A stretch of DNA of 21,818 nt from a virus: the IMG/VR virus record IMGVR_UViG_3300021963_000740, positions 1 to 21,818 of that record; one strand, 5' to 3'. Each line of letters opens with the position of its first letter. Position 1 is the first letter of the stretch. Shown piece by piece: positions 20 to 3,088 of the stretch. Below the pieces are notes generated by a model, which had not been told where the DNA came from, made no database searches, and saw only the letters and a list, made by a program, of their open reading frames with translations. The position numbers and the translations under genes are program-made.

Positions 20-631
20 TCAAATCAAAGCGAGGGTGTCGCCCTCATTGGGGCAGATCGGCAAGTTGAGGTTGCCTTTCTTGTATGCCCACTTGGAGGT
101 GAGCCGAACTGCATATCCGCATGATGGGCACTGAGCAAGCAACATCCGAGTGCCTTGCTTTTTGCCAATCGAGGCTGACAACTCAGCGTGGACGTATGCA
201 CCGAGCGAGTCGATGATCTGCTGATAGGCTTGAACGAATGCACCGCCATGAGTCACCGACTTGTAACGGGCTGACTGAGTGCCGTTGGGTAACAGCAACA
301 TGGCATCGGCTATCTTCTGATAAGGCTTGCCGTGATTGAGCGCACCCTTAGCGGTATGGCACAACATGGCAATGAGGGTCTCAAAGACCTTGGTTGGATC
401 GGCAAGCACAGGGCTGATGAAAATCTCATAGTGAGCGTCAGCACTGTTCGTACTAGGGAAGCACTCGCCAACTGACTTGAAGTTGGTGCGCTTGGCATTG
501 GAGGGCAGAGCGCAAGACACTCTGATTCTGTCGCTGATGGACACGCCATTGATAAGAAAGAAAGGCTTCAACTCATTGATAGCACCATTGAGCCAATCTT
601 CACGGGTAGAGTAAATGACAGGTAGTGACAT
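20..631 (-). CDS. SprT-like protein with a degraded metalloprotease motif and C-terminal zinc ribbon
   Basis: A 203-residue protein that resembles the SprT-like proteins of phages (family recognised from memory, not from a search). The middle part, EIFISPVLADPTKVFETLIA, matches the stretch that leads into the zinc-metalloprotease HExxH helix. Here that motif reads AMLCH (residues 88-92): the first histidine and the catalytic glutamate are missing, while H92 and the later H100 (NHGKPY) remain. The C-terminus keeps KKQGTRML followed by CPSCGY (C168, C171) and a lone CP at C193, so the zinc ribbon also lacks its fourth cysteine. SprT/Spartan relatives act on DNA-associated proteins; this copy is probably not catalytic and may only bind DNA or protein. 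The start is chosen because it fits the reading frame length and follows a two-hairpin leader. The gene is the last of the leftward set in the window. Confidence 0.7.
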   Translation of the reverse strand: MSLPVIYSTREDWLNGAINELKPFFLINGVSISDRIRVSCALPSNAKRTNFKSVGECFPSTNSADAHYEIFISPVLADPTKVFETLIAMLCHTAKGALNHGKPYQKIADAMLLLPNGTQSARYKSVTHGGAFVQAYQQIIDSLGAYVHAELSASIGKKQGTRMLLAQCPSCGYAVRLTSKWAYKKGNLNLPICPNEGDTLALI

Positions 632-647
632 AGTAGGTCTCGGTTGA

Positions 648-685
648 AGTGGGAATTTCCACTGGTGAACCCCGAAAGGCTCACC
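648..685 (-). promoter_or_regulatory. Two-hairpin leader (copy A) upstream of the SprT-like gene
   Basis: Plus-strand arms are GGTGAACC (664-671) and GGCTCACC (678-685) around a 6-nt loop, then AGTGG (648-652) and CCACT (659-663). In the leftward transcript this gives a stem of 8 pairs including one G-U, followed by a second stem ending 16 nt before the start codon at 631. The same arrangement precedes three other leftward genes. Confidence 0.55.
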
Positions 686-705
686 GCTAAAAATTCAATA
701 ACGTG

Positions 706-734
706 AGTGTAAACGAAAGCGATATCCTTTGCAA
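706..734 (-). promoter_or_regulatory. Candidate sigma70-type promoter for the SprT-like gene
   Basis: On the minus strand TTGCAA (729-734) and TACACT (706-711) are separated by exactly 17 nt. This resembles TTGACA/TATAAT with several mismatches. Transcription from here would start near 699 and include the whole two-hairpin leader. Only the spacing and partial match support it. Confidence 0.35.
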
Positions 735-746
735 GTGGGTATCGCT
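718..746. repeat. Imperfect inverted repeat over the candidate promoter
   Basis: AGCGATATCC (718-727) and GGGTATCGCT (737-746) are inverted copies matching at 9 of 10 positions around a 9-nt spacer. It overlaps the -35-like element above and lies just after the stop codon of the DUF6011-like gene. It has no following T-run, so an operator is more likely than a terminator. Confidence 0.5.
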
Positions 747-765
747 ATCATGTTTAAACAGTGTC

Positions 766-1344
766 TTACCAACCAAACCGCTTGGCACAGACAGCACCCA
801 TGCCGAGTGCGACTGACTCAGGATCTGACAGATCCCTGTTACAGACTGAACAACGTCCGAATGTTTTGCCATAGGCAATGGCTGAACTACGGGGGTCAGC
901 AAGCACCTCGCTGATCTGACTTGCACTCTCAGAGGAGGCATCACGGGAGGTGAACAACTTACCGCCTGTCACCTTGCCGAGGTAGACACCCTCGGACTTG
1001 ACGTAGATTGAACCCGCATTCTTGCCTGTCACAGGGGCAGGGCTGAATACGAAAGCACCGAGCCGTAGCTTGGGGAATGACAGACCCGAATCCTTAGCCT
1101 TGTTAAAGGCAACCTCGATAGGGGACACGTCAACCTGAGCGGAGGGGACAGGCTCAGGGCGAGGGGCAGAGTCCTTAGCCACGCACCGCTGAATAGCGGA
1201 CAGTTGGTTAGGGGTCAGACTGCCATATCTGTGAAGCGCAGACAGCACAGAGGAGGCAAAGGAAAATGAGGGGGCTTTAGCAACAAGCCAGTCATACTCG
1301 GCAGGGTTAGCCTCGATGAACTGGGCGATACGTTGGACATTCAT
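766..1344 (-). CDS. Zinc-motif protein resembling DUF6011
   Basis: A 192-residue protein. The C-terminal 35 residues carry GRCSVCNRDL, DPESVALGMG and AVCAKRFGW (C165, C168, C186), which match from memory the small DUF6011 zinc-binding domain common in phage and plasmid proteins. The N-terminal 55 residues are helical, with SSVLSALHRYGSLTPNQLSA, a stretch that recurs in phage proteins carrying this domain. Residues 57-75 are a proline-rich linker and 80-150 are a probable beta-rich region. The biochemical role of the family is unknown to me; a DNA- or RNA-binding function is a guess. The start at 1344 follows a GGAGACC ribosome-binding region and a two-hairpin leader. No frameshift or truncation is visible. 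Confidence 0.7.
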   Translation of the reverse strand: MNVQRIAQFIEANPAEYDWLVAKAPSFSFASSVLSALHRYGSLTPNQLSAIQRCVAKDSAPRPEPVPSAQVDVSPIEVAFNKAKDSGLSFPKLRLGAFVFSPAPVTGKNAGSIYVKSEGVYLGKVTGGKLFTSRDASSESASQISEVLADPRSSAIAYGKTFGRCSVCNRDLSDPESVALGMGAVCAKRFGW

Positions 1345-1362
1345 AGTGGGTCTCCGATGTTG

Positions 1363-1405
1363 GGCAAAATTGCCACTTCAAAACCCTGACAAGCAGGGCT
1401 TCAAG
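1363..1405 (-). promoter_or_regulatory. Two-hairpin leader (copy B) upstream of the DUF6011-like gene
   Basis: Plus-strand arms CCCTG (1384-1388) and CAGGG (1394-1398) form the core of hairpin I, extended in the RNA by A-U and G-U pairs between flanking AAAA and CTTC. Hairpin II is GGCAA (1363-1367) and TTGCC (1370-1374), ending 18 nt before the start codon at 1344. The sequence differs from copies A and C but the layout and distance are the same. Confidence 0.45.
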
Positions 1406-1413
1406 GTGAAAAT

Positions 1414-1545
1414 TTAAGCAGTGGCAAACTTCCTGTTTAAACAGTCTTTGTAACTGCCAGTGAAAAAGATGCGGTAGCCGTTACGCTCCCGATCACCCTT
1501 GCAAACAATGATGTTGCCGAACCTGTCAATCTGTGCTGTATACAT
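1414..1545 (-). CDS. Small unknown protein, 43 aa
   Basis: A short open frame beginning MYTAQIDRFGNIIVCKGDRE and ending KFATA. It has a strong ribosome binding site, AAAGGAGACC, ending 3 nt before the ATG, and it starts 11 nt after the stop codon of the leftward 83-residue gene, which suggests co-translation. The composition (mixed charged and hydrophobic residues, one glycine-tyrosine-rich patch) is protein-like. The 3' end includes a GTTTAAAC palindrome at 1435-1442. I recognise no family; it could be a small early phage protein acting on a host target. Confidence rests on the ribosome binding site, spacing and an otherwise unexplained gap. Confidence 0.6.
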   Translation of the reverse strand: MYTAQIDRFGNIIVCKGDRERNGYRIFFTGSYKDCLNRKFATA

Positions 1546-1556
1546 ACTGGTCTCCT

Positions 1557-1808
1557 TTAGATTTTGTAAACACCAACCTCACCGCCATTGATCCACTCAG
1601 CGAACAAGCCACTCTTGCTGAGAACCGCATCAACCTTGGGGTTGACACCGAAAACCCAATCGGCTTTCCCGTTGTAGTTGTCAACCCACAGGTAAGAGTC
1701 AGACTCCTCTGCGCTGATTTGAAATCTGCCGTTCATGTCGTCCCGAACGTAGACAGGAACTCCCATTTTCTTGAGAGCGTTAAAGGCTTTGATGTATTCA
1801 CGTTTCAT
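1557..1808 (-). CDS. Hypothetical protein, 83 aa
   Basis: The protein starts MKREYIKAFNALKKMGVPVY and continues with an acidic, tryptophan-containing half. An in-frame start lies further upstream, but ATG 1808 is preferred: it has AGAGGA 7 nt upstream and is preceded by the two-hairpin leader at the same distance seen for other leftward genes. The upstream extension would run through that leader and be low-complexity noise. The pattern of a helical N-terminus followed by short strands (RFQISAEESDSYLWVDNYNG) suggests a small alpha/beta fold. No signal peptide, membrane segment or metal motif is seen. Family not recognised; probably an accessory protein co-expressed with the 43-residue gene downstream. 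Confidence 0.7.
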   Translation of the reverse strand: MKREYIKAFNALKKMGVPVYVRDDMNGRFQISAEESDSYLWVDNYNGKADWVFGVNPKVDAVLSKSGLFAEWINGGEVGVYKI

Positions 1809-1826
1809 GTTGTGTCCTCTGTAGCC

Positions 1827-1863
1827 GTGCAACATTGCACTGGTCAACCCCGTAGGGCTGACC
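1827..1863 (-). promoter_or_regulatory. Two-hairpin leader (copy C) upstream of the 83-aa gene
   Basis: Hairpin I arms on the plus strand are GGTCAACC (1842-1849) and GGCTGACC (1856-1863) with loop CCGTAG; hairpin II is GTGCAA (1827-1832) and TTGCAC (1835-1840), ending 18 nt before the start at 1808. Compared with copy A, one arm base changes G to C and its partner changes C to G, so the pairing is kept. Confidence 0.6.
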
Positions 1864-1872
1864 GCTGAAATG

Positions 1873-2067
1873 TCAGATGGAATCCATAGCCAATTGACGG
1901 GCTTGCTTGAGCAGAGCCTCGACTTCATGCTCAAGGGTCATTAGCAACTTGGCATCCTCAGCGTTGAGCATGATGGAAGCAAAGGGGTGCTTACGGCTGT
2001 AAGCGATAAGCCGTTTTAGATTGTCCTGAGAGGGGCTGATCTTGTAGGCATTTAGAAGCTTGTTCAT
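1873..2067 (-). CDS. Hypothetical helical protein, 64 aa
   Basis: A 64-residue, probably all-helical protein (MNKLLNAYKISPSQDNLKRL, then LNAEDAKLLMTLEHEVEALL). Its ATG overlaps the last four bases of the leftward 72-residue gene (2064-2067), so translation is likely coupled. The second half has a heptad-like leucine pattern that could form a short coiled coil or a dimer. No cysteine, membrane segment or known motif is visible. I do not recognise the family. The two genes together form the promoter-proximal pair of the leftward block and are probably expressed early; that is inference from position next to the divergent regulatory region. Confidence 0.65.
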   Translation of the reverse strand: MNKLLNAYKISPSQDNLKRLIAYSRKHPFASIMLNAEDAKLLMTLEHEVEALLKQARQLAMDSI

Positions 2068-2282
2068 ACAACCTCCAATGCATCGAGGGTATCGACAACT
2101 TCAAAGATCAAACCGAACTTAATGGGCTGATCGTGACCGATGCGCAAGCCCATTGCAATGATGTAGGCGAGACCGCCAAAATCATCATTCTTACGGGCAA
2201 AGATAGCGTCATCTAACAAGTTCCGAGCAATGATGCCCTTGATAGCCTGATCGGCTTGGGCTTTGAAATCAATGATTTGCAT
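2064..2282 (-). CDS. Hypothetical protein, 72 aa, first leftward gene
   Basis: The protein begins MQIIDFKAQADQAIKGIIAR and ends in a hydrophobic, acidic tail (IFEVVDTLDALEVV). The helical N-terminus followed by a glycine-rich hydrophobic centre (GGLAYIIAMGLRIG) is compatible with a small globular protein; the centre is too short and mixed to call a membrane segment. It is the first gene leftward from the divergent non-coding region and has its own two-hairpin leader. The upstream Shine-Dalgarno is weak (AAAGA before ATG). No family recognised. Confidence 0.6.
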   Translation of the reverse strand: MQIIDFKAQADQAIKGIIARNLLDDAIFARKNDDFGGLAYIIAMGLRIGHDQPIKFGLIFEVVDTLDALEVV

Positions 2283-2298
2283 AGTGTCTTTCGGTGTT

Positions 2299-2333
2299 AG
2301 TGCAAGAGCGCACTCCGTAGCCCTAGGGGCTAC
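2299..2333 (-). promoter_or_regulatory. Two-hairpin leader (copy D) upstream of the 72-aa gene
   Basis: Hairpin I has perfect 7-bp arms GTAGCCC (2317-2323) and GGGCTAC (2327-2333) with a 3-nt loop; hairpin II is AGTGC (2299-2303) and GCACT (2310-2314), ending 16 nt before the start at 2282. Layout matches copies A, B and C. Confidence 0.5.
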
Positions 2334-2682
2334 AGGCTGAACTCTAGCTAGAGGGGCAGGGGGATTTCAAACGTTTTACGTACCTGATTAGTCCCTGCCT
2401 CAAGACTCTTGTTGGTGTCCCCAACTCTGTCTCACTAGGGCTTCTATCGGTAGCCTAGAACGTATCCCCTTGTGTCGGTTGGCGGGGAAAACATCTAAAG
2501 AACAATCAACCGACAACTGAACTTTAGCAGAATGATAGTGCCTGTCAATACACCTAATATTTATCCGAGTAAACTGTAGGGTTATTAAATTGTGGGTGTT
2601 TGATGGGCTGAATCGAGTCGCTCTTATTAGTAGGTTTACTGGGTCTTGGGGCATAGCATGAACCATGCCAGAGTCCAAAAAG

Positions 2683-2885: not shown

Positions 2886-3015
2886 TTATGCACTGTATAA
2901 GATATGTATAACTTATGTATAACCCTGTGGATAACTGAGGGTTGTGGATAACCTGTGGCTAACATCCTGTGGATAACTTTGACTTATGCACAGGGTGTGG
3001 ATAAACTGTGCATAA
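2886..3015. other. DnaA-box cluster, candidate replication origin
   Basis: Within 130 bp there are six perfect matches to TTATNCACA or its complement: TGTGGATAA at 2926-2934, 2943-2951, 2968-2976 and 2996-3004, TTATGCACA at 2984-2992 and TGTGCATAA at 3007-3015. Two near matches are TTATGCACT at 2886-2894 and TGTGGCTAA at 2954-2962. Five of the perfect boxes lie in one orientation. An AT-rich stretch with TATAA-like steps precedes them (about 2881-2925). The density is that of a bacterial oriC, so host DnaA very likely binds here; whether it fires replication, represses the flanking promoters or titrates DnaA is inference. Confidence 0.8.
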
Positions 3016-3088
3016 TACGAACAGTGTGTTTCCCTGCGTTGGTGCGGGGAAAATGTGCAGGGCTTATATATAGATGGAGCGTTTAAAC

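Follow-up and report, generated by a model that had tools for sequence, protein, structure and literature searches.

The window analysed here, the whole 21,818-base stretch of an IMG/VR virus record, carries rightward genes from which terminase, portal and capsid proteins are made, and a short leftward block of six small genes (20–2282). Four of these six genes are preceded by a leader, and all four leaders lie on the minus strand. The canonical element spans about 48 nt and reads, 5′ to 3′, N6 (strand a), W, CAGC, hairpin I, A, GUGS (strand b), N6 (strand a′) and SCAC (strand b′). The 4-bp helix b:b′ (hairpin II) closes a loop of exactly 6 nt, which is complementary to strand a and forms with it the 6-bp helix a:a′. 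The features of the leftward block are as follows.

20–631, minus strand: gene after copy A (gene A), similar to phage SprT-like protease genes (PHROG 6361)
649–696, minus strand: leader copy A (covariance model 61.1 bits, E 8e-12), with homologous leaders in relatives; a GAATTT 696–691, TTAGC (with the preceding T) 690–686, hairpin I 685–664, A 663, b GTGG 662–659, a′ AAATTC 658–653, b′ CCAC 652–649; 17 nt to the ATG at 631
766–1344, minus strand: gene after copy B (gene B), DUF6011-containing protein (PHROG 4046)
1362–1415, minus strand: leader copy B, degenerate (24.1 bits, E 0.0066), kept in relatives; hairpin I of 11 bp, TCACC for WCAGC, b′ arm broken, a:a′ down to 5 bp; ATG at 1344, 17 nt away
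1415–1545, minus strand: 43-aa open reading frame without its own element, closely following the copy C gene; homologues in relatives such as L093 and L123
1557–1808, minus strand: gene after copy C, 83 aa, function unknown; phage homologues with 36–49% identity
1827–1874, minus strand: leader copy C (67.9 bits, E 1.8e-13); a GACATT 1874–1869, TCAGC 1868–1864, hairpin I 1863–1842, A 1841, b GTGC 1840–1837, a′ AATGTT 1836–1831, b′ GCAC 1830–1827; 18 nt to the ATG at 1808; the TGA stop of the upstream gene (1875–1873) extends into strand a
1873–2067, minus strand: gene of 64 aa that has no element; it overlaps the upstream gene's stop
2064–2282, minus strand: gene after copy D, 72 aa, function unknown
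2300–2346, minus strand: leader copy D (58.4 bits, E 3.5e-11), the first element in the leftward block; a TAGAGT 2346–2341, TCAGC 2340–2336, hairpin I 2335–2315, A 2314, b GTGC 2313–2310, a′ GCTCTT 2309–2304, b′ GCAC 2303–2300; 17 nt to the ATG at 2282
2521–2548, minus strand: candidate sigma-70-type promoter of the leftward block, TTGACA-16-TAAAGT (10/12), with TG before the second hexamer

The promoter at 2521–2548 rests on the consensus match only, and the total number of promoter calls was near that expected by chance. Searches of PHROGs and Pfam with the 83-aa product of the copy C gene gave no match. A further promoter-like sequence, TTGCAA-17-TACACT, was observed upstream of the copy A leader (window 697–730) and is kept in most close relatives (about 75–110 nt upstream of gene A in L001–L012), so that the copy A element should lie close to where a transcript begins. 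Within the non-coding DNA that separates the leftward block from the rightward gene of the small terminase, positions 2900–3020 contain several TGTGGATAA-type repeats which look like an origin or control region.

A preliminary description of this locus, made from sequence alone, had reported four leaders with two hairpins each. The observation itself was confirmed, and the feature proved to be more extensive than described. Hairpin II had been placed 16–18 nt before the starts at 631, 1344, 1808 and 2282, and we measured 17–18 nt; the stem pair changing from G-C to C-G between copies A and C was recovered and located in hairpin I. Likewise, the two remaining leftward genes, with starts at 2067 and 1545, are coupled and carry no leader, as claimed: they overlap the upstream stop or begin about 11 nt after it. 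Two statements did not hold in the form given. Copies B and D had been said to share only the layout, but D is a full member of the sequence family alongside A and C, and B, thought to keep the layout with different bases, is a degenerate member. The two-hairpin model was incomplete as well, because it missed a third helix in which the 6-nt loop of hairpin II pairs with the 5′ six nucleotides of the element, forming a pseudoknot. The idea that these leaders are autonomous cis-acting RNA elements whose structure is conserved is supported by the results below, while the suggested function (translation control, processing or protein binding) is still only a suggestion without experimental data.

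Covariation shows that the four leaders belong to one RNA family with a three-stem pseudoknot of the H-type, in which hairpin I is inserted between strands a and b. Relatives were collected by IMG/VR searches with the gene A protein (22 loci) and the gene B protein (13 loci), and their upstream regions carry the same element with differing base sequences, as seen in the strand a/loop combinations GAATTT/AAATTC, GACATT/AATGTC and GAAATT/AATTTC. In 34 distinct copies, 98.3% of the cells were paired, compared with 31–52% after the partner was slid by 1–3 columns. An alignment of 36 copies from several lineages gave 97.4% standard pairs (33–49% slid), double changes at 16 of 19 pairs and a covariation score of 0.719 (0.065–0.110 slid). 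Under a tree-aware null, which holds the number of substitutions per column constant, every one of the nine strongest column pairs was a predicted pair (a:a′ accounting for three, hairpin I for five and b:b′ for one), and all 46,800 null values lay below them. This null is approximate, since the tree was built from 40 columns and the elements may recombine.

The covariation obtained from copies found with a structural descriptor is inflated, because such a descriptor selects for pairing. This bias was countered by the leaders collected through protein homology and by a partial descriptor specifying only hairpin I and the hairpin II motif. The partial descriptor found 104 sites, all with at least 4 of 6 a:a′ pairs (6/6 in 85, 5/6 in 16 and 4/6 in 3), and no site in a reversed sequence control. 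The preliminary description had named absence of covariation, or loss of the hairpins in relatives, as what would refute it. This check was run and the idea survived: leaders collected by protein similarity alone retain the structure, all three helices covary, and further copies lie upstream of start codons in other phage lineages. G-U pairs far exceeded A-C mismatches (70 versus 2 in the first alignment, 69 versus 9 in the second), which indicates that the leftward transcript, read toward the genes, is the folding strand and is under selection. By two criteria the element qualifies as a conserved cis-acting structured RNA: its proposed helices show more compensatory change than phylogeny alone would produce, and its position relative to the downstream gene on the same strand is constant.

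Two alternative folds were considered. Two independent hairpins are ruled out, as the loop of hairpin II changes in concert with strand a, which lies over 25 nt farther upstream. A nested long stem pairing WCAGC with GUGS is predicted for A, B and D by single-sequence folding (z-scores of −3.3, −1.3, −3.7 and −2.9 for A, B, C and D, respectively) but is disfavoured for canonical copies: position 7 can pair with the fourth base of b in just 9 of 88 copies, and that base instead pairs with b′ as C-G, G-C or U-A. The invariance of ‘AG’ in the 88-copy count arises by construction. Covariation cannot separate simultaneous from alternating pairing of a:a′ and b:b′. Hairpin I mostly has 8–13 bp, and its caps include the UNCG tetraloops TACG (10), TGCG (4) and TTCG (3).

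In copy B and its relatives the layout is preserved while the pseudoknot is incomplete, and these degenerate leaders may retain the nested WCAGC:b fold. B-type leaders were observed at 1362–1415, at the same position in L004, L006, L008 and L024–L030, and before gene A in L013 and L015. They have CACC for CAGC, which would strengthen pairing with b as the b′ arm decays; possibly, the B type is the same element locked into an alternative fold.

The placement of the element was analysed in 97 distinct contexts, where copies precede blocks of small early genes. The gap from b′ to the ATG is 14–27 nt with a mode of 17, and an ATG with a Shine-Dalgarno (SD)-like motif lies at this distance downstream in 94 contexts. 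The SD-like motif lies 5–7 nt past b′ in 67 of the 97, and its distance is fairly constant within lineages. An upstream reading frame ends nearby in 67 contexts, and in 59 of these its stop codon overlaps strand a. The stop starts one base before strand a in 41 contexts (TGA, whose GA forms a1–a2), two bases inside it in 15 (TAG of AATAGT) and at its first bases in 3, so that the overlapping stops differ in codon and register between two lineages. This overlap may merely reflect genome compaction.

Tracing the genes forward from each element by automatic reading frame calls, we found as the next event another element on the stop codon in 40 cases, and a start overlapping the stop or at most 25 nt from it in 147; in 71 the block ended or a wider gap followed. 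Coupled starts require very short distances (PMC10666635), and the element therefore seems to mark those blocks which initiate translation independently. Among relatives, a single gene bears different versions of the element and one version precedes different genes, which argues that the leader is not gene-specific and that the elements are exchangeable.

The element recurs across several unrelated environmental phage lineages. Across the 3.9 Mb of DNA that was fetched, the structural descriptor recognised 89 distinct cores, compared with 2 matches in the reversed sequence; as the loci were partly fetched by pattern, this is an enrichment in related loci and not a genome-wide rate. These cores came from filtered IMG/VR pattern scans, one of them partial, and their number is a lower bound. 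Carriers include an AT-rich lineage encoding a DNA polymerase, a primase and a GP88-domain protein (L066/L069 type), the 48-kb phages L092 and L068, and L086 with seven copies in 7.9 kb, whose terminase showed no significant similarity to that of the window by BLASTP. Contigs of about 60 kb, such as G003 and G006, have only two to four copies, clustered in the early block. In about a dozen contigs of the L066 type (L066, L069, L105, L129 and others), one element copy is followed by a highly conserved 31-aa membrane-like peptide, MNTFYDVVVGSILTTIFTVIFVAELIIIWGE, which was unmatched among the isolate phages searched.

No element was found in 18 isolate phages searched whole, which carry related portal, SprT-like, DUF6011, GP88 or other downstream genes, and BLAST of element sequences against phages gave chance matches only. 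The element was absent from 368 of 369 gammaproteobacterial genomes; the sole positive lies on a contig with L066-type sequence, which is likely a phage contig. In a partial pattern scan of genome contigs, the fetched loci gave one true hit only, in a Methylococcaceae metagenome-assembled genome (MAG). Its contig L323 (51,330 bases) carries two L066-type copies, so that either a methanotroph host of this lineage or a binning error is possible. This association, perhaps a binning effect, is the only hint to a host.

Comparison with known RNA families gave no identity. At the gathering threshold, the 4227 models of Rfam 15 matched no family in the window and only a tRNA in 11 other element-bearing loci, and permissive Rfam scans returned chance-level unrelated matches only. 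There was no match to a tRNA-like structure, nor any Rfam match to known self-cleaving ribozymes (hammerhead, HDV, twister, pistol and others). An intrinsic terminator is likewise not indicated: none of the four elements coincides with a called terminator-like site, the bases after hairpin I are AGTG, and no U run comes after hairpin II. Nor does the element precede a recognised gene for a single-stranded DNA-binding protein, as an autogenous operator of the gene 32 type would: the downstream genes encode SprT-like, DUF6011 and GP88-domain proteins and small unknowns, none identified as such a protein.

The element probably governs either the translation of the genes behind it or the fate of their shared mRNA. 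The best explanation, in our view, is a phage-borne cis-acting leader that acts on translation initiation, although we consider it as likely to be wrong as right: the structure, folding strand, placement and recurrence of the element are shown by the results above, the translational role is inferred, and neither expression nor probing data are available. According to this proposal, every early block that initiates by itself would be opened by a knot directly upstream of its SD. With its end about 17 nt from the AUG, the knot lies close to where a bound 30S subunit should have its upstream edge, and it could act as a 30S docking or standby structure. Alternatively, it may be the operator of a shared RNA-binding protein governing all early blocks together, for which there are no binding data and no trans-acting factor has been identified. 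SD sequestration was found in none of the predicted states, and no built-in on/off switch is visible. The position of the knot, its distance to the SD, which is fairly constant within lineages, and the never sequestered SD together fit docking or a protein operator better than a switch that hides the SD. During termination at the upstream stop, the ribosome would sit on strand a and transiently open a:a′, possibly coupling translation of one block to initiation of the next. Stop-codon coupling cannot be the entire function, because a promoter-like sequence precedes gene A and no gene abuts it upstream. One may speculate further on a translation-punctuation system in which interchangeable pseudoknots, whose 5′ strand carries or abuts the stop codon of the previous block, open the gene blocks of early transcripts; termination might mechanically reset the next leader, or a single phage factor might read the shared knot and control translation of an early regulon.

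The serious rival, which we rate well below an even chance, is an element for mRNA processing or stability between the blocks of polycistronic early transcripts, shielding the upstream 3′ end or the downstream 5′ end or marking a cut site for a host nuclease, by analogy with the RNase III sites of T7 early mRNA. Its location, often exactly between a stop codon and the following SD, the position of the gene A element shortly after a promoter-like sequence and close to where a transcript should begin, and the stable UNCG-capped hairpins agree with this view. However, typical RNase III sites are longer than hairpin I with its mostly 8–13 bp, and simple protection needs neither the conserved GUGS/SCAC and CAG nor a fairly fixed distance to the SD. 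A new small self-cleaving ribozyme cutting the transcript between gene blocks would explain the compact pseudoknot, the few strongly conserved unpaired bases (CAG, A) and the numerous copies between genes. It is nevertheless improbable given the lack of matches to Rfam ribozyme models, a topology unlike that of HDV and pistol, and a placement tied to the SD which points to translation.

Even less support exists for a metabolite riboswitch or an element acting as DNA, both of which we regard as very unlikely. Pseudoknots near the SD are common in small riboswitches, but the element occurs in several copies per genome before many unrelated small genes, its invariant core is small, and no SD-hiding expression platform was seen. 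A promoter, repressor operator or recombination cassette border with incidental RNA structure might account for the reshuffling of versions and genes among relatives, and the repeats may well promote cassette exchange. Such a DNA-level function is disfavoured by the excess of G-U over A-C, by the covariation of a loop with a distant strand, which has no DNA rationale, and by the location between stop codon and SD.

Few examples of pseudoknot-based translational control are known in phages, and a 2010 review named the gene 32 knot as possibly the sole viral case in translational autoregulation (PMC3014915). The element described here forms a multi-copy family, absent from Rfam 15 and present in several phage lineages, whose structure has strong covariation support. 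It provides a concrete consensus with which phage genomes can be searched, makes a connection between a stop codon and the leader behind it open to testing, and might serve as a portable part for translation should its activity be shown.

Several known systems resemble the element in part. Type III antitoxin RNAs (ToxI-like) are likewise small repeated pseudoknots in phage-related DNA; they form a tandem array beside a nuclease gene, whereas the new elements are single units, each before a different gene. The RNase III sites of T7 early mRNA also punctuate early phage genes with structured RNA, but they are longer hairpins cut by RNase III, without a pseudoknot or a conserved GUGS-N6-SCAC. The timP mRNA leader shares a pseudoknot in a bacterial leader, there essential for translation initiation (PMC11228461); that leader belongs to the mRNA of a chromosomal toxin, which is paired with an antitoxin sRNA, and its ribosome binding site (RBS) is sequestered; no sequestered RBS was seen in the new element. 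The pseudoknot-dependent rep genes of IncI, IncB and IncL/M plasmids such as ColIb-P9 repZ (titles cited in PMC10724649) likewise place a pseudoknot beside the SD and link it to the end of translation of an upstream frame, as is proposed for the new element. In the repZ-type mechanism a terminating ribosome lets the knot form, while it should break the knot of the new element; repZ is single copy in plasmids, and in contrast to these plasmids the element is not known to have an antisense RNA. The gene 32 mRNA pseudoknot of T4, T2 and RB69, which serves translational repression by gp32 (PMC3014915), is likewise a phage mRNA leader pseudoknot upstream of the RBS. It is found at one gene, 67 nt upstream of the AUG, and is bound by that gene's own product (PMC3014915), whereas the new element is present in multiple copies before unrelated genes, lies about 17 nt from the AUG, contains an inserted hairpin and often embeds a stop codon.
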